Shown here: piece after piece, positions 3,296 to 26,667 of the stretch | Layout: each line of letters begins with the position of its first letter | Position numbering within the stretch: position 1 is the stretch's first letter | DNA from: a virus | Virus record (IMG/VR): IMGVR_UViG_3300006865_000383 | Location: 1 to 32,909 of that record | Strand: one strand, 5' to 3' | DNA length: 32,909 nt | Position numbers and translations under genes: made by a program | The notes under the pieces: model-generated | Told to the model about the DNA's origin: nothing | What the model saw: only the letters and a program-made list of their open reading frames with translations | The model's database searches: none

Positions 3296-3475
3296 ATGAC
3301 CGCGGAGATCTGGATCTACTGCCGGTTCTGCGACCGAAGCGCGCCGCTAGCGGAGTTTGTGAGGATGTTGCACGAGACGCCGGTGTCGAGCGGTGGCACG
3401 GTTGTCGGCTGGGTCGCCGTGCTGCGGCATCGCGAGTGCCGGACGGCGACGGCAGTGCCGGTTCGGGTAGACTGA
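3296..3475 (+). CDS. Small zinc-ribbon protein, paralogue of the one at 26153
   Basis: 59 residues from ATG 3296. The N-terminus IYCRFCDRSAPLAEF supplies C-x2-C and a downstream LRHREC supplies His and Cys, giving a likely CCHC or CCC-H zinc site. The opening matches the protein at 26153-26347 (YCSRCKRAAPLGEW): YC-x2-C-x-R-x-APL-x-E is shared. Both genes end just before a stem-loop and a new gene block. No function is known; small regulatory zinc proteins such as Mu Com are a loose comparison. Confidence 0.65.
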   Translation: MTAEIWIYCRFCDRSAPLAEFVRMLHETPVSSGGTVVGWVAVLRHRECRTATAVPVRVD

Positions 3476-3519: not shown

Positions 3520-3561
3520 CCACCGCAGTTCCGGGGACCCGGGGCGCGGTGGTTTCGTTGT
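3520..3561 (+). terminator. Possible stem-loop terminator or attenuator before the HNH gene
   Basis: CCACCGC (3520-3526) pairs with GCGGTGG (3546-3552), followed by a T-rich TTTCGTTGT. The 19-base interior can itself fold (CCGG/CCGG). The stem is only 7 bp and the T-tract is broken, so terminator strength is doubtful. It is listed because three other zinc-ribbon genes in the window have the same arrangement. A TAGACT at 3468-3473 could be a -10 element but has no recognisable -35. Confidence 0.35.
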
Positions 3562-6638: not shown

Positions 6639-8015
6639 ATGGGGCTGGTCGCCAAGTCTGTAAAAAATGCGTTCACGATCACCGGGCGGAGCGCACCGTT
6701 CCCGGCCTTTAGCGGTACGACCGGGCAGATCCTGCATTACGGAGGGGCGCTCACCAAGTCCGGGCAGCAGGTCGACGAGCAGGGCGCGTTGCGCGTGGCG
6801 GCGATCTGGATCGCCAACACCATTCTGGCCGACGAGATCGCCTCGTTGGTCATGCGCTTGGTGCTCAAGGACGACCGCGATCGCGTGCCGCAGCAGCCGA
6901 TGGCGGCGCGGGCGCTCTGGAGTGACAACCCGAACCCGGACCAAACCCGCTTCGGCGTCGAGGCCACAGAGACGTTGAGCATGTGCCTGTGGGGTGCGTC
7001 CTACTCGTACCTGGGGTGGACGCGCTCAGGCGAGCTGGGCGTCCGCTGGCCGCTCGACCCGAGCGGCGTCACGCTCGAGCGGACCGCGTACGGCGGCATC
7101 CGGCTACAAGCTCGCGGCCAGGGCGAGCTCGTGAACGAGCCGGACGAGCGTCCGCAGTTTGAGTACGTGCCGCTGTACACACTACCGGGCCAGCTGACGC
7201 CGGTATCCCCCGTCCGCATGGCCGCCGAGCTTGCCGGGCTGGCGCTCGCCTATGACGAGACGGCGGCCCGCCTGATGGGGCGCGGGATGAACCCGAGCGC
7301 CATCCTGACCTCGGGCGAGTACGTCGATCCGACGAACGCCGAGGAGATATCCAAGCGACTGGAAGGACTCTACGGCGGCACCGGCAACGCCGGGAAGGTC
7401 GCCGTGCTGGGGGGTAAAGACCTCAAGTTGGAGCGGATGACGATGAGCCTGGCGGACGCCGAGTTCGTGCGGCAAAACGATCGCGTCTTTCAGACGCTGC
7501 TGGCGATGTGGCGCGTGCCGCCGACGGTGGCCGGCATGGTCGATAAGCCGTCGACATGGGGCACGGGCGTGGCCGAGTTCTCCCGCGGCCTCGAACGTTT
7601 CACGCTCCGGCCGATCGTGCAGCGGCGACAGGCCGCGCACCAGAAGTACATCACCAGCTGGATCGACCCTGACCTGCAGGTGAAGTACATCTTCGACTCG
7701 TTACTGTCGGCATCGCCGAAAGAGCGCACGGATATCCAGGTCAAGCAGCTCATGGCGGGCATGACATCGCGCGAGCGGGTGCTCGCGCAGAACGACGAGG
7801 CTCCGTTTGCGGACGATGAGACCGTCTTCACGCAGCTAGCGCTGGCTGAGGAGGAAGACCGGCGGCTCGCCCGCCTGGCGCGGCAGGCGGATGCCTACGC
7901 CGCGCTCATCAGGGCGGGCGTGGAGCCCGATTCCGCGGCTGAGGCGACCGGGTTTGACCCCTCAGAGCTGCGTCACATCGGCGCCCTGCCCGTCACTGTG
8001 GCGGAGGATGCGTGA
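6639..8015 (+). CDS. Portal protein, HK97 family
   Basis: 458 residues, typical of the family; AGGAGGG precedes ATG 6639. It forms the 12-subunit ring at one capsid vertex through which DNA passes. Family features include the N-terminal AIWIANTILADEIASL helix, the wing region with GRGMNPSAIL, then the stem/crown region with FQTLLAMWRVPPTVAGM and a C-terminal helical tail. It lies directly after terminase in the standard head-gene order. Its stop is overlapped by the GTG of the Com-like gene (GTGA at 8012). Confidence 0.96.
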   Translation: MGLVAKSVKNAFTITGRSAPFPAFSGTTGQILHYGGALTKSGQQVDEQGALRVAAIWIANTILADEIASLVMRLVLKDDRDRVPQQPMAARALWSDNPNPDQTRFGVEATETLSMCLWGASYSYLGWTRSGELGVRWPLDPSGVTLERTAYGGIRLQARGQGELVNEPDERPQFEYVPLYTLPGQLTPVSPVRMAAELAGLALAYDETAARLMGRGMNPSAILTSGEYVDPTNAEEISKRLEGLYGGTGNAGKVAVLGGKDLKLERMTMSLADAEFVRQNDRVFQTLLAMWRVPPTVAGMVDKPSTWGTGVAEFSRGLERFTLRPIVQRRQAAHQKYITSWIDPDLQVKYIFDSLLSASPKERTDIQVKQLMAGMTSRERVLAQNDEAPFADDETVFTQLALAEEEDRRLARLARQADAYAALIRAGVEPDSAAEATGFDPSELRHIGALPVTVAEDA

Positions 8016-8221
8016 GCGAGGTCAGCACGGCTGCCTGCTGGCGGTGCAAGCGCAAGCTGTTTGAACTACGGCTTGCCGTCCGCATCACGCTGCCGCCGGG
8101 CGTCGTCGTGGAGCTCCCATGCGCTCGCTGTCGCGCGATGAATGCGGTCTCACTTGACAGGCTCCCCAGGGGGGTCGTAGCATTTGACAGGCTCCCCAGG
8201 GGGGTCGTAGCATTCGCCTAA
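8012..8221 (+). CDS. Com-like zinc-finger protein with a promoter in its last codons
   Basis: 69 residues from GTG 8012, overlapping the portal stop. It has CWRCKRKLFEL, then VELPCARCRAMNAVSL, resembling the C-x2-C...C-x2-C-x2-N pattern of phage Mu Com, a zinc-finger translational regulator that binds mRNA. The C-terminus is a tandem 10-residue repeat (DRLPRGVVAF) encoded by the 30-bp repeat at 8154-8213, which also spells two promoters. The original protein probably ended after one unit. Its TAA (8219-8221) is in the same frame as the protease gene that follows, with no other stop between. An RNA-binding regulatory role is inferred from Com only. Confidence 0.75.
   Translation: MSEVSTAACWRCKRKLFELRLAVRITLPPGVVVELPCARCRAMNAVSLDRLPRGVVAFDRLPRGVVAFA
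8154..8213 (+). repeat. 30-bp perfect tandem duplication
   Basis: Bases 8154-8183 and 8184-8213 are identical. Each copy starts with TTGACA and ends with TAGCAT. The unit is 10 codons, so it adds a 10-residue repeat to the Com-like protein without shifting frame. It looks recent, with no differences between copies. Confidence 0.95.
8154..8213 (+). promoter_or_regulatory. Two tandem sigma70-type promoters upstream of the protease and capsid genes
   Basis: Promoter 1 has TTGACA at 8154-8159 and TAGCAT at 8178-8183. Promoter 2 has TTGACA at 8184-8189 and TAGCAT at 8208-8213. Both spacers are 18 bp. The same form with the same spacer recurs at 14284, and close variants lie before thiD (31808) and on the minus strand (31335). 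Transcription from promoter 2 would start near 8220, about 40 bases before the stem-loop at 8257. Confidence 0.7.
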
Positions 8222-8256
8222 CCGAATAGCCGGAGATCGAGCGCCCCGCGACATCG

Positions 8257-8292
8257 AGCGCCCCTACTGTCGCAGCAGGGGCGCTTTTATTT
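8257..8292 (+). terminator. Intrinsic terminator or attenuator just before the protease start
   Basis: AGCGCCCCT (8257-8265) pairs perfectly with AGGGGCGCT (8277-8285) around an 11-base loop, followed by TTTTATTT (8285-8292). The protease TTG start (8291) is inside the T-tract. The left arm is also present upstream as part of a 12-base direct repeat (8236-8247 and 8253-8264), so the right arm has two possible partners, a layout that suits regulated folding. Confidence 0.8.
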
Positions 8293-9076
8293 GGACATCG
8301 AGACGCTGGCATCGCTCAAGCCGTACAACCGCGGCGCGCGCAAACAGCGCGAATGGTTCAGCGTGCGCAATCTGGCGACCGGCGAGGCCGAAGTGTTCAT
8401 CTATGACTTCATCGGCTTCGACCCGTGGCTTGGAGGCGTTGCCGCGAAGGACTTCGTCGCCCAACTGCGGCGTACCGCCGCGCAAAAGATCCTGCTGCGT
8501 ATCAACAGCCCCGGCGGCGACATCGCCGAGGCGGTGACGATCCGCAATGCGCTGATCGAGCATCCCGCCAGCATCGAGACTCACATTGACGGACTGGCGG
8601 CGTCCTCTGCCTCATGGGTGGGGCTCGCCGCCGAGAAGGTGATCATGTCGCCCCATGCGACGCTGATGATCCACGAGCCGTGGAACATCGTGATGGGCGA
8701 CGCGCAGGCGATGCGCAAGGAGGCAGACGTCCTCGACAAGTTTGGCGACGAGATCGCCAGCATGCTCGTCGAGAAGGCCGGCGGCACGCGCGAGGAGTGG
8801 CGCGACCGCATGCGCGAGGAGACCTGGTACTCGGACCAGGAGGCCGTCGATGCCGGTCTGGCCGACGAGATCGCCGGCGCGCCTGCGGAGAGCGCGGAGA
8901 ACCGCTACGACGCCGCCATCCTCGCGCTCTACCGACGCACGCCGTCGCACCTGACGGAGGGTGCAGCACATCCGTCGCCGTTGCAGCAGCAAGAAGCAGG
9001 CCCGCACCCCGAACTGGTGCAGGCCGCGCTGGAGCACTATCGGGAGCAGTCACGCCGGTTGGGCGTGGCCGTGTAG
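8291..9076 (+). CDS. Prohead maturation protease, ClpP-like serine protease (S14)
   Basis: 261 residues from TTG 8291. It trims capsid proteins during head maturation. The fold markers are EVFIYDFIG, RINSPGGD at 70-77, nucleophile region GLAASSAS with Ser105, and MIHEPW with His128. The position of the third catalytic residue (ETWYSDQEAVDAGLADEI) has Glu177 where E. coli ClpP has Asp. The start is unusual: no ribosome-binding site, and the TTG lies in the U-tract of a terminator hairpin. The frame is open back to the TAA of the Com-like gene at 8219, so readthrough would give a fusion. No standard start exists between them. Confidence 0.92.
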   Translation: MDIETLASLKPYNRGARKQREWFSVRNLATGEAEVFIYDFIGFDPWLGGVAAKDFVAQLRRTAAQKILLRINSPGGDIAEAVTIRNALIEHPASIETHIDGLAASSASWVGLAAEKVIMSPHATLMIHEPWNIVMGDAQAMRKEADVLDKFGDEIASMLVEKAGGTREEWRDRMREETWYSDQEAVDAGLADEIAGAPAESAENRYDAAILALYRRTPSHLTEGAAHPSPLQQQEAGPHPELVQAALEHYREQSRRLGVAV

Positions 9077-9085
9077 GAGGGGAAC

Positions 9086-10432
9086 ATGCCGTTCGCGATC
9101 AACATCGAGCGTGACGAAGACATCGCCGCGCTGACGGCCAACGACATCGAGAGAGCGATCGACGAGCGCAATCAGTCGCTGCACGAAATCTTCGCGCAGG
9201 CGGGCGCCAATCTCGACCACACGAAGGTGACCGCCGTCTCAGTGAGGGACGGCGCCGAGCTGGCGCAACAGATCCGCCACCGCAACGAGGAGATCACCAA
9301 GCTCGCCAAGCGCCGCGACGAGCTGGCCGAGATCGAGAAGATCCGGCGTCAGACCGAAGAGCGGCGCAACGAGCCGTCCGGTCCGGACCCGCGGCAGTTC
9401 GCGCCGGGCTCCGGACCGTCGCCGACGCAGCCGGTCCGGCAGATGCAGAACCTCGGCCACCTGGTCACGCGCAACGAGAGGTACGCCGCCTGGGCGCAGG
9501 AGGGCGCGCCCTCCGGGACGGGTCTGAGCTTCTCGTTCGACAAGATGCGCCCCTCCGACGTCCTCGCCTCGGCCGCGTACGTGCGCACGCTGCGCAACAC
9601 GCTATTCGAGACGACGGCCGGGTGGGCGCCGGAGTCGATCCGTGTGCCTGGACTCGTCGTCGAAGCCGTCACGCGGCCGCTGCAGCTCCTCGACATCATC
9701 CCTCTCGCGGAGACGTCGATGGAGAAGGTCGTGTACATGGAGGAGACGACGCGCACGCACGCGGCCGCGGAAAAGGCGGAGGGGGCGGCGTACGCCGAGT
9801 CGACCTTCGTCCTGACGGAGAAGGAGTCGAGCGTGCGCAAGATCACCGACTCCATCCCGGTCACGGACGAGCAGCTGGCCGACGTCGCGCAGGTTGAGAG
9901 CTATCTGAATTCGCGCCTCGTCTTCGGGCTCAGGCAGCGTCTGGACTCGCAGGTACTCGTCGGCAACGGCACGGCGCCGAACCTGCGCGGCATCAAGAAC
10001 GTCGCCGGCATCCAGACGCAGGCGCTGGGCGGGGACAACCGGCCAGACGCCTTCTTCAAGGCGATGACGAAGATTCGCGTCACCGGACGGGCGATGCCGA
10101 CGCACCACCTGGTCCACCCGGATGACTGGCAGGAGATCCGCCTGCTGAAGACGACGGACGGCGCTTACCTCTGGGGACCGCCGTCCGAGGCGGGCCCGGA
10201 ACGGATGTGGGGGCTGCCGGTGGTCCAGCAGGACGCCGACGCCGCGGGCACAGGCTATGTGGGCTCGTTCCAGCCGGCGTGGATCAGCTTGTTCGAGCGC
10301 GCCGGCGTCGACGTCCAGGTCGGATTCATCGGCGACCAGTTCGTGCAGGGCAAGCGCACGATTCGCGCGGACATGCGGTTCGCGTTCGTCGTGTTCCGCC
10401 CGGCGGCGTTCTGCACGGTCACGGGCATCTAG
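9086..10432 (+). CDS. Major capsid protein, HK97 fold
   Basis: 448 residues; AGGAGGGG precedes ATG 9086. The first 120 or so residues are charged helical/coiled coil (ITKLAKRRDELAEIEKIRR), the scaffold-like delta domain expected to be removed by the upstream protease. The rest matches the HK97 capsid pattern: SIRVPGLVVEAVTRPLQLLDIIPL, the E-loop/P-domain with KVVYMEET, then LVHPDDWQEIRLLKTTDGAYLWG and a final strand region FAFVVFRPAAFCTVTGI. It lies in the canonical portal-protease-capsid order. Confidence 0.96.
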   Translation: MPFAINIERDEDIAALTANDIERAIDERNQSLHEIFAQAGANLDHTKVTAVSVRDGAELAQQIRHRNEEITKLAKRRDELAEIEKIRRQTEERRNEPSGPDPRQFAPGSGPSPTQPVRQMQNLGHLVTRNERYAAWAQEGAPSGTGLSFSFDKMRPSDVLASAAYVRTLRNTLFETTAGWAPESIRVPGLVVEAVTRPLQLLDIIPLAETSMEKVVYMEETTRTHAAAEKAEGAAYAESTFVLTEKESSVRKITDSIPVTDEQLADVAQVESYLNSRLVFGLRQRLDSQVLVGNGTAPNLRGIKNVAGIQTQALGGDNRPDAFFKAMTKIRVTGRAMPTHHLVHPDDWQEIRLLKTTDGAYLWGPPSEAGPERMWGLPVVQQDADAAGTGYVGSFQPAWISLFERAGVDVQVGFIGDQFVQGKRTIRADMRFAFVVFRPAAFCTVTGI

Positions 10433-12987: not shown

Positions 12988-13998
12988 ATGCCGTCAGGCG
13001 TCCGGGATCTTGGTATTACCCAACTGGGCCGTGAGACGACGAAGGGGACCGCCGTAGCGGCGACGACACGCTGGGTCGGGCTCACCACCTTCGACCCCGA
13101 GGAGCCGCGCCTGTACCCGCAGATTCAGAACGGTCTGCTGTTGCAGAACAAGGCGAGCGCGCCTATCGCCAAGAAGATGACGCGCTTCACGCTCGAGGCG
13201 GATCTGACCTTCGAGCAGTTACTGCACGTCCTGAACATGTGCGTCATGGGGCTGACGACCGGTACGGGTGCTGGTGCAGATAAGACGTGGACGTTCAATC
13301 CGTCGTTCGCGGCGGACCCGGGTTTGAATTCATTCACCATCCAGAAGCGATTGACGGATGGCTCCACAAACTGGGACGAACGCATCGCCTACGCGATGGG
13401 GTCATCGTTGGAGATCGGCGGTGCGATCGGCGAGAACGCGAAGCTCTCGATGGAGGGCTTCGGACGGCCGATCGAGCTGGCCACCGCGATCACCCCGGCG
13501 ATCGCGGTGCCGACCGTGAACTTCGTGCCGGTCAGCCTGTTCAAGGTCTACATCGACGACACGTTTGCCGGGCTGGGCACGACGCAGATCCTTGGGAGCC
13601 TGCACGGATTCCGCCTCCGGTTCGACGCGATGGCGCAGCCGAAGGATTACATCGACGGCCGGCCCGACCTTTCGTTTTCGAGCCACGGCGTCAAGGCCGC
13701 CTACTTCACGCTTGAGTTGCAGGGAGAGTTCCAGGCGCAGATCGAGACCGAACGGACGAAGGCGCGCTCGGCGAGCAAGCGCTACGTCCGCCTGGAGGCT
13801 GTCGGTCCGGCGCTGGGGGGCTCAAACTACAAGATCACGATAGACCTGTGCTGCGGATACGAGCAGGGGGTCTTCGATTCGAACGGCGAGCGCGAGGGCA
13901 ATGATGCCGTGACGCTCTCGCTCGTACAGGATTACGATCCGACGCCGCCGCTCGCCGCCAAGTTCACGGTGGTGAACGCGCTGAGCAGTCTGCCATAA
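12988..13998 (+). CDS. Major tail (tube) protein
   Basis: 336 residues with a strong ribosome-binding site (GAGGAGGAG) upstream of ATG 12988. The opening PSGVRDLGITQLGRETTKGT and the later strands (MTRFTLEADLTFEQLLHVLN, NAKLSMEGFGRP) match siphovirus tube proteins, which stack as hexamers around the tape measure. It lies after the tail terminator and before the chaperones, the standard order. The stop overlaps the next ATG (TAATG). Confidence 0.92.
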   Translation: MPSGVRDLGITQLGRETTKGTAVAATTRWVGLTTFDPEEPRLYPQIQNGLLLQNKASAPIAKKMTRFTLEADLTFEQLLHVLNMCVMGLTTGTGAGADKTWTFNPSFAADPGLNSFTIQKRLTDGSTNWDERIAYAMGSSLEIGGAIGENAKLSMEGFGRPIELATAITPAIAVPTVNFVPVSLFKVYIDDTFAGLGTTQILGSLHGFRLRFDAMAQPKDYIDGRPDLSFSSHGVKAAYFTLELQGEFQAQIETERTKARSASKRYVRLEAVGPALGGSNYKITIDLCCGYEQGVFDSNGEREGNDAVTLSLVQDYDPTPPLAAKFTVVNALSSLP

Positions 13999-14321
13999 TG
14001 GGGCTAGCGCACTGTGGCGGGATGCTGCCGGGGGCACGCACCTCGCCACCAGGACCGCCGCCGGGCGTGCCCGCCGCAGTGCTGGCCAGGAATCGGATGC
14101 TCGACCTTGCGTGTCCGGTCTGTGGAACCCTGGTGCTGCGTATCGACACCGGGTCCGGGATGGCGCGCGTTGACCCCCCCATCGTCTTCGCGGCGCGGTG
14201 CCGCAACCGGCGGCCGGGAGCCTGTCGGCGACCGCTGATCACGTGGGAAGTGACGTACCGCGGCCGGGTCGCTGTGCGCAGGCTTGACAGCCTCGCGACG
14301 GCGGCGGTAGCATCGCCATAG
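13998..14321 (+). CDS. Zinc-finger protein with a promoter in its last codons
   Basis: 107 residues; ATG 13998 overlaps the tube stop. After a Pro-rich lead of about 30 residues comes LDLACPVCGTLVLRID, then AARCRNRRPGACRRP, a four-cysteine ribbon. It interrupts the usual tube-chaperone gene order. Its C-terminus (RLDSLATAAVASP) parallels that of the Com-like protein (SLDRLPRGVVAFA) because both tails are encoded over a TTGACA-18-TAGCAT promoter in the same codon phase. The unit of zinc gene, promoter and stem-loop therefore looks like a module used twice. Function unknown; a regulatory RNA-binding role is inferred by analogy to Com. Confidence 0.7.
   Translation: MGLAHCGGMLPGARTSPPGPPPGVPAAVLARNRMLDLACPVCGTLVLRIDTGSGMARVDPPIVFAARCRNRRPGACRRPLITWEVTYRGRVAVRRLDSLATAAVASP
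14284..14313 (+). promoter_or_regulatory. Sigma70-type promoter upstream of the tail chaperone genes
   Basis: TTGACA at 14284-14289 and TAGCAT at 14308-14313, spacer 18 bp. Hexamers and spacer are identical to both copies at 8154-8213 although the spacer sequence differs. Transcription should begin near 14320, just after the zinc-finger gene ends. Confidence 0.75.
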
Positions 14322-14340
14322 CTCTTTCTGTCACCGACTG

Positions 14341-14376
14341 CGTGACTCGCCCGAGCGATCGGCGAGTCACGTTTTT
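14341..14376 (+). terminator. Intrinsic terminator or attenuator before the chaperone genes
   Basis: CGTGACTCGCC (14341-14351) pairs perfectly with GGCGAGTCACG (14361-14371) around a 9-base loop, followed by TTTTTGTTG. It lies about 20 bases after the predicted start of the 14284 promoter and 20 bases before the next ATG. As drawn, most transcripts from that promoter would end after about 57 nt unless readthrough is regulated. Confidence 0.85.
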
Positions 14377-14396
14377 GTTGCGCTGGGAGACAGAAC

Positions 14397-26152: not shown

Positions 26153-26347
26153 GTGCTCTACTGCTCGCGCTGCAAGCGGGCGGCGCCGCTGGGAGAGTGG
26201 CGCGAGGGGAAGATGATCGACGTGCTCGCGGCGGGACGCGGGCACATCTGGCATCATCGTTGTGGCTGGCGGGTTGCCGTCCCGGACCGTGCACTGGCGG
26301 ACGGCGCCCGGTTGCCGGAACGGGGTACAATAGGCGCGATGCGATAG
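26153..26347 (+). CDS. Small zinc-ribbon protein, paralogue of the one at 3296
   Basis: 64 residues from GTG 26153. The N-terminus YCSRCKRAAPLGEW and the later IWHHRCGWRV give C-x2-C with HH-x-C. The opening shares YC-x2-C-x-R-x-APL-x-E with the protein at 3296-3475. It ends at the border of the lysis block, where a large stem-loop follows. A TACAAT at 26326-26331 within its last codons could be a -10 element, but no -35 hexamer lies 17-18 bases upstream. Function unknown. Confidence 0.65.
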   Translation: MLYCSRCKRAAPLGEWREGKMIDVLAAGRGHIWHHRCGWRVAVPDRALADGARLPERGTIGAMR

Positions 26348-26379
26348 GTCAGGGGCAGACCCGGCAGAGCGGCGCGGCT

Positions 26380-26429
26380 GAGCCGCGGCCCCCCCGGAGA
26401 ATGGGGGGCCGCGGCTCGTTCGGTTTTCT
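26380..26429 (+). terminator. Long GC-rich stem-loop before the lysis genes
   Basis: GAGCCGCGGCCCCCC (26380-26394) pairs perfectly with GGGGGGCCGCGGCTC (26403-26417) around an 8-base loop. GTTCGGTTTTCT follows, a modest U-tract. The 15-bp stem is the strongest in the window. It sits 20 bases before the lysis block's first ribosome-binding site and may delay or limit lysis gene expression. Confidence 0.7.
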
Positions 26430-26448
26430 GGAAACCTGGGAAGGGGTC

Positions 26449-26667
26449 ATGTCGTTGGAGCAGATCGGGGAGCTGGTGAAAGATGTGGGATTCCCCGTCG
26501 CCGTGGCGACGTTCGTCCTCGTGCGCCTCAACGGCAAGATGGACCGGCTGACGGAGGCACTCTACAAGCTCATCGAGAAGCTCGAGCAGCAGGCGCACCG
26601 CGCGGCGCTTCGCGATGCAGAGATGGCCTACGAGGAGCGAGTCAGGCAGCAAGGAGGATCGCTATGA
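26449..26667 (+). CDS. YvrJ-like small membrane protein of the lysis block
   Basis: 72 residues from ATG 26449 after GGGAAGGGG. DVGFPVAVATFVLVRLNGKMDRLTEAL matches the YvrJ-type pattern (Gly-Phe-Pro, hydrophobic helix, Leu-x-Arg, then Asp-x-Leu). The rest is a charged coiled helix. Such proteins are often beside holins in phages of Gram-positive-type hosts and may tune hole formation. The end overlaps the holin ATG (ATGA at 26664). Confidence 0.75.
   Translation: MSLEQIGELVKDVGFPVAVATFVLVRLNGKMDRLTEALYKLIEKLEQQAHRAALRDAEMAYEERVRQQGGSL

Follow-up and report, generated by a model that had tools for sequence, protein, structure and literature searches.

Organization of the locus

The DNA analysed here, referred to as the window, is the 32,909-nucleotide record IMGVR_UViG_3300006865_000383 at its full length, and the window and all of its relatives discussed below (denoted by L numbers) are contigs of uncultured viruses. 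The genes of interest are arranged in the order HNH endonuclease, small and large terminase subunits, portal (6639-8015), a short open reading frame (ORF) encoding a predicted zinc ribbon, a putative promoter-leader-hairpin unit at 8154-8292 (unit 2), a ClpP-like protease and the major capsid protein, and the features discussed in this work are collected in Table 1.

Table 1. Features of the window, with predicted roles; all positions count from the first letter of the window.
Positions	Strand	Feature	Remark
3296..3475	+	Zinc-ribbon-like ORF, putative unit 1	Precedes HNH, terS and terL; no -35 box
3520..3560	+	Hairpin of putative unit 1, with TTTCGTTG	
8012..8221	+	Small Com-like zinc-ribbon gene, GTG start, 69 aa, CxxC...CxxC	PHROG_6417 match
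8154..8183	+	Sigma70-type promoter TTGACA-18-TAGCAT, upstream copy	Motif scan, repeat comparison; duplicate found in this contig only
8184..8213	+	Promoter TTGACA-18-TAGCAT, downstream copy	Same position as in relatives, where it is conserved; start predicted near 8220
8220..8229	+	AACCGAATAG at the predicted 5' end of the RNA	Possible NusA/boxC-type site
8238..8247	+	Repeat 1, CGAGCGCCCC	5' arm of hairpin form A; contains GAGNNCC
8248..8273	+	Inner stem GCGACA/TGTCGC (8248-8253 with 8268-8273)	Loop encloses repeat 2; compensatory changes
8255..8264	+	Repeat 2, CGAGCGCCCC	5' arm of hairpin form B, the stem originally predicted
8257..8292	+	Terminator-like hairpin and TTTTATTT	Likely Shine-Dalgarno AGGGG lies within the 3' arm, 8277-8285
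8291..9076	+	ClpP-like head maturation protease, TTG start	First gene past the hairpin; major capsid protein next at 9086
13998..14321	+	Second zinc-ribbon-like ORF (CPVC...C...C), unit 3	
14284..14313	+	Third TTGACA-18-TAGCAT copy, unit 3	Within the 3' end of ORF 13998-14321
14340..14382	+	Terminator-like hairpin of unit 3 (14340-14372) and TTTTTGTTG	Precedes gene 14397 and the tape measure gene 15033
26153..26347	+	Zinc-ribbon-like ORF, putative unit 4	TACAAT at 26327, close to the ORF end; no -35 box
26379..26430	+	Hairpin of putative unit 4, 16 pairs, then GTTCGGTTTTC	

The product of the short ORF matches PHROG_6417, annotated as a translational regulator, with an E value of 2.4e-4, and the corresponding zinc ribbon of the relative L038 does so with an E value of 8e-9. 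The cysteines of the CxxC...CxxC arrangement are invariant in five homologues of the window protein, and a profile built from these five matches Com of phage Mu with an E value of 7e-6 and a probability of 84%. The Com family model PF10122 is not matched by the window zinc ribbon itself, and two relatives score 21.0 and 22.4 bits, below the cut-off of 22.9. From the end of the ORF it is 36 nt to the hairpin and 70 nt to the start of the protease, and the ORF thus occupies the directly upstream position seen in the Com family. In other contigs a Com-like zinc ribbon forms the end of the portal protein (L089, L230, L260) or of a minor head (Mu F-like) gene (L169), with a leader directly behind.

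The promoter and its duplication

Both promoter sequences anticipated by the original prediction were located at the expected positions, within the 3' end of the zinc-ribbon gene. Each copy agrees with the sigma70 consensus, which may not be that of the host, at 10 of 12 positions, and two such sites occur in 6 kb as compared with 0.4 +/- 0.6 in dinucleotide shuffles. Across the + strand of the entire 33-kb window there are only three sigma70-like sites (at least 9 of 12 positions), all of which read TTGACA-18-TAGCAT and all of which belong to units 2 and 3. The two copies in unit 2 constitute a 30-bp tandem repeat, 97% alike and in frame within the zinc-ribbon gene, with the ten residues DRLPRGVVAF present twice as a result. 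The duplication is absent from all relatives examined. The proposal that tandem copies reflect selection for higher output does not stand, as only this contig possesses the second copy, which has the form of a clean, in-frame, slippage-type duplication of 30 bp. The repeat may represent a recent slippage event or an effect of assembly.

The hexamer TTGACA is retained in 19 promoter-bearing units, and the zinc-ribbon ORFs read it in three different frames. In the window type it is translated in frame as xLD and in L088 and L144 as LT, in L089, L097, L098, L127, L169 and L209 it supplies the TGA stop codon of the ORF itself, and in L113 it lies after the stop. Boxes of the -10 type are found 16-18 nt downstream, including TATAAT (L089, L097, L098), TACAAT (L045, L093) and TAGCAT (window, L021). 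Protein coding can hardly account for the retention of TTGACA despite differing reading frames, which instead points to selection on the DNA, that is, on a promoter; we have accordingly rejected the notion that these sites are a mere coding artefact of Leu-Asp codons. Judged by its conservation, the predicted promoter is real, and the pairing of promoter and putative attenuator is well supported by sequence comparison.

The leader RNA and the start of the protease gene

Initiation near 8220 would yield a transcript of approximately 72 nt up to the T run. The RNA 8220-8292 has a predicted folding energy of -28.8 kcal/mol (z = -2.5). Its hairpin begins 37 nt past the transcription start predicted for the second promoter and pairs AGCGCCCCT with AGGGGCGCT (8257-8265 with 8277-8285) through nine perfect pairs followed by CTG/CAG, with the T tract TTTTATTT, which is interrupted, immediately thereafter; the 9-bp perfect stem and T run envisaged about 40 bases past the start are therefore present as predicted. 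The accompanying statement that the transcript contains no ORF holds for the 72-nt RNA and fails for its surroundings, in that the promoters lie inside ORF 8012-8221 and the T run enters the TTG start of the protease. The promoter-carrying zinc-ribbon gene, the further unit at 14.3 kb and the overlap between the hairpin and the protease ribosome-binding site had all been overlooked.

TTG 8291 is the most likely start codon of the protease, and the best Shine-Dalgarno sequence available to it is AGGGG at 8277-8281, 9 nt before that codon. As AGGGG is part of the 3' arm, the hairpin is expected to hide the ribosome-binding site; the start codon directly adjoins the T run. Furthermore, the 5' arm is present twice, as repeats 1 and 2, such that two mutually exclusive hairpins would compete for a single 3' arm. 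The window and L021 favour form B and the other window-type relatives form A, by margins of 0.8-4.3 kcal/mol. Both hairpin forms would be expected to terminate, and the window leader shows no sign of an antiterminator structure that would compete with them. Comparison across relatives, which the original prediction had advised as a search for compensatory changes in the stem, identified covariation in the inner stem: with the pattern GCNNCA/TGNNGC, 97% of cells are paired, an outcome equalled in 1 of 500 shuffles, and compensatory changes occur at two pairs, with three pair types at one position and two at another.

Relatives of the window type

A locus of the window type is carried by five viral contigs that are independent of one another (L002, L021, L038, L045 and L081); the L002 locus recurs in L024, L077 and L080, and that of L081 in L082. 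In each of these relatives a Com-like ORF comes first and CGAGCGCCCC follows in two copies, one of which differs by a base in L081; next come a 3' arm rich in GC, a tract rich in T and finally a TTG start codon. The gene following the leader is the protease in four of the five and the portal in L038, and the placement of the pair before a portal gene indicates that zinc ribbon and leader move as a unit. Among named phages no close relative was found, the zinc ribbon having no matches and the protease matching only at less than 60% identity. A Com-like match in a Bradyrhizobium genome (L159) was dropped as spurious, its context not being that of a phage; the same pattern was absent from 397 genomes of the order. 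On the contig of L002, a second sigma70-like promoter (L398) is located near small HTH-type regulator and tyrosine-recombinase-like genes, and the presence of these genes suggests that this relative is temperate.

Further units in the same genome

The architecture described above appears to occur at least twice in this genome, at 8154-8292 and at 14284-14372 (unit 3). In the phage of L021, a distant relative in which both units are present, a homologue of gene 14397 (40% identity; L400) likewise follows a zinc ribbon of its own, a TTGACA-18-TAGAGT promoter and a terminator hairpin, and the zinc ribbon of unit 3 matches that of the L021 tail gene with an E value of 8e-5. No second unit was found in the tail regions of the L002, L076 and L088 contigs, so the presence of unit 3 is not universal. 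Each of the four strong + strand terminators in the window (3520, 8257, 14340 and 26379) begins 19-45 nt after a cysteine-rich small ORF. The ORFs of putative units 1 and 4 share the pattern YCxxCxRxAPLxE, the hairpins behind them are GC-rich and have tails that contain T residues, and putative unit 4 precedes a gene near 26449.

Protease loci collected by homology, and a motif scan

Our main conclusions are based on 65 nonredundant ClpP-like protease loci gathered by protein homology alone, independently of any motif, and not on a scan for the motif itself. The promoter pattern lies within 330 nt upstream of the protease in 11 of the 65, in comparison to 1.3% of 345-nt windows from the same contigs. 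A strict zinc-ribbon pattern accompanies 6 of the 11 loci with the promoter and 3 of the 54 without it (Fisher p = 4e-4); these last three (L091, L127, L144) display a leader or terminator on inspection, and most of the apparently missing zinc ribbons are variant forms (L097, L098, L125, L135). One locus, L093, has promoter and terminator without an adjacent zinc ribbon. Terminator-like hairpins, zinc ribbons and AACNGAATAG, exact or with one mismatch, cluster in the promoter-bearing loci. Among the 65 protease loci, promoter-leader-hairpin units and zinc ribbons occur together almost exclusively.

A scan of the collection for the promoter together with AACNGAATAG returned 103 contigs and a shuffled motif returned 115, so that the raw count is uninformative. 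A terminator-like hairpin followed within 160 nt in 24 of 74 cases as opposed to 6 of 52 in the shuffled control (strong hairpins, 21 versus 4), and in 21 of 38 versus 1 of 8 when GC-rich contigs were considered. The downstream genes in the scan encoded head proteases, major head proteins, portals and terminases, whereas those of the control were mostly helicases and DNA polymerases. The leaders contain one to three hairpins and differ in sequence; what is common to all families is a zinc ribbon, a promoter, a short structured leader, a hairpin with T tract, and structural genes.

Candidate RNA signals

Mu Com binds CC(N)2-3GAG in hairpin loops, with the SELEX motif NGAGNNCC(N)2-3GAGNNCCNN (PMC6483171). 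The window leader contains GAGCGCC twice and CC(N)2-3GAG not at all, the latter being found in the leaders of L094, L209, L214, L216, L245 and L260, among others, and hairpins such as GCGC-CUAGA-GCGC are present in other leaders. GAGNNCC was observed 12 times in 20 leaders (3.8 in shuffled sequence), and CC(N)2-3GAG 29 times in the 28 terminator-bearing leaders of the scan (14.4 shuffled), with only 8 occurrences of the reverse complement. When only homology-selected leaders of other than the window type are counted, the enrichment of CC(N)2-3GAG is modest (11 versus 5.2, P = 0.024) and GAGNNCC shows none; the argument from Com sites is thus partly dependent on related sequences.

The word AACNGAATAG lies near the 5' end of the leader and, with at most one mismatch, is present in 8 of the 15 homology-selected loci that have a leader; we take it to resemble the boxC RNA of M. 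tuberculosis that is bound by NusA. Binding of boxC-like RNA by NusA is described in one report (PMC6614801). In unit 3 a boxA-like GCTCTTT at 14321-14327, unique on the + strand, is situated one base past the predicted start. The boxC-like and boxA-like words and the Com-type motifs may be RNA signals, and we regard them as leads, not tests.

Discussion

We propose that the head operon has an attenuated internal promoter at positions 8154-8292, and that the zinc ribbon relieves termination or masking by binding the leader, a reading to which we assign a probability of roughly 0.55. The sigma70-type promoter within the 3' end of the zinc-ribbon gene would initiate a leader of about 70 nt, and either hairpin form, A or B, in conjunction with the U tract, would stop transcription; in the window group the hairpin would also mask the protease Shine-Dalgarno sequence. 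The zinc-ribbon protein would be supplied by upstream transcription once terminase and portal are expressed, and a boost to capsid and tail genes would as a consequence come only after the late programme has begun. The protein probably binds the leader, most likely at the GAGCGCC repeats that form the 5' arms, and this binding would be expected to free the 3' arm and admit RNA polymerase and ribosomes into the protease and capsid genes. Ultimately, the arrangement would boost high-copy structural proteins by feed-forward and would otherwise keep their genes silent. Termination at the hairpin, the role of the zinc ribbon as a regulator, the direction of that regulation, and any involvement of NusA are matters of inference. 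The attenuated late promoter put forward in the original prediction is borne out insofar as the promoter-leader-terminator architecture recurs before structural genes in relatives, and again within the window.

It is conceivable that the switch is instead purely translational, as in Mu com/mom, with the hairpin masking AGGGG at 8277-8281 and pressing on the TTG codon, a Com-like protein opening it, and the T run serving as initiation region in place of a terminator. The 3' arm of both hairpin forms does cover the best Shine-Dalgarno sequence, the TTG directly past the hairpin is kept in window-type relatives, and the neighbouring gene is Com-like, Mu Com itself acting on a structure that hides the mom start. 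However, L089, L094, L098, L216 and unit 3 of the window use ATG and a ribosome-binding site of their own past the T tract and yet keep the hairpin and T tract, and a conserved promoter would be needless under translational control alone, and we therefore consider this explanation unlikely, if the best of the alternatives. Attenuation is favoured over it because it fits all families, while masking of the ribosome-binding site fits the window type only, where both may apply.

Somewhat less probable still is a housekeeping arrangement, in which a constitutive internal promoter is joined to an insulating terminator and the zinc ribbon is a non-regulatory part of the packaging or portal machinery. 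Intergenic terminators are common in phages, and the fusion of zinc ribbons to the portal C-terminus in L089, L230 and L260 would accord with such a role; nevertheless, a terminator 40 nt past its own promoter cannot insulate from that promoter, and a separate zinc-ribbon gene with leader is also found before tail genes (window, L021) and before a portal gene (L038). Last, a short, stable, trans-acting phage small RNA with no connection to the zinc ribbon, a product that the original prediction had entertained and that has no positive evidence of its own, is improbable: the compact unit of promoter, structured RNA (approximately 60-140 nt) and terminator and the better-than-shuffled folding of the window RNA would suit it, but the placement before structural genes is kept and the RNA sequence is not, no family-wide conserved seed is seen except AACNGAATAG near the 5' end, and the link to the zinc ribbon is left unexplained.

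The attenuated promoter that we favour has partial counterparts in several known systems. One is the Mu Com/mom leader (PF10122, PHROG_6417), in which a small CxxC...CxxC protein is encoded immediately 5' of its target RNA, GAGNNCC and CC(N)2-3GAG motifs are present, and a hairpin hides the ribosome-binding site of the next gene (PMC6483171). In Mu the target is a DNA-modification gene, whereas the putative target here is a head or tail block. The leader here also carries a promoter of its own together with a hairpin of intrinsic-terminator type, there are several zinc ribbons per genome, and their HMM scores fall under the family cut-off. At lambda pR'-tR', transcripts stop at a nearby terminator until the phage protein Q is made. 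The likeness, at the level of sequence, is that of a promoter closely trailed by an intrinsic-type terminator before structural genes (Q: PMC7171158). The differences are that the candidate regulator is not Q but an RNA-binding-type zinc ribbon beside each unit, that the leader is far shorter, and that there is one unit per structural block. The put RNA of HK022, too, is structured, occupies the 5' end of an operon in its phage and is followed by terminators (PMC9378689). It acts without a phage protein and on early genes, whereas a zinc ribbon accompanies nearly every unit described here, and the RNA sequences differ. With the boxA/boxC-NusA signals of rRNA operons the leaders would share AACNGAATAG, which we take to be boxC-like, and the boxA-like GCTCTTT of unit 3, but no complete boxB-boxA-boxC arrangement is found. 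A search of Rfam returned no family at the gathering threshold, the match to sX11 (E 0.85) being attributable to chance, and the open-access literature yielded no description of the motif or of a phage zinc-ribbon attenuator.

A more general scheme, in which each structural block of the phage has its own zinc ribbon and cognate leader, each zinc ribbon works together with host Nus factors on the nascent RNA to lift termination of its block, in a manner reminiscent of Tat/TAR, and blocks are turned on in genome order, is possible, though we hold it only tentatively.

Taken together, these observations suggest an undescribed switch by which structural genes would stay off until released by a protein of the phage. 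It would bear on how head and tail gene expression is timed and scaled in phages outside lambda-like models. If the proposal is correct, several lineages of uncultured phages would possess a small, self-contained switch composed of a zinc ribbon of approximately 65 aa and an RNA of approximately 70 nt, used twice in one genome. Such a switch would provide compact parts for transcription control, and would widen the Com family from the translational control of one gene to the control of structural operons.
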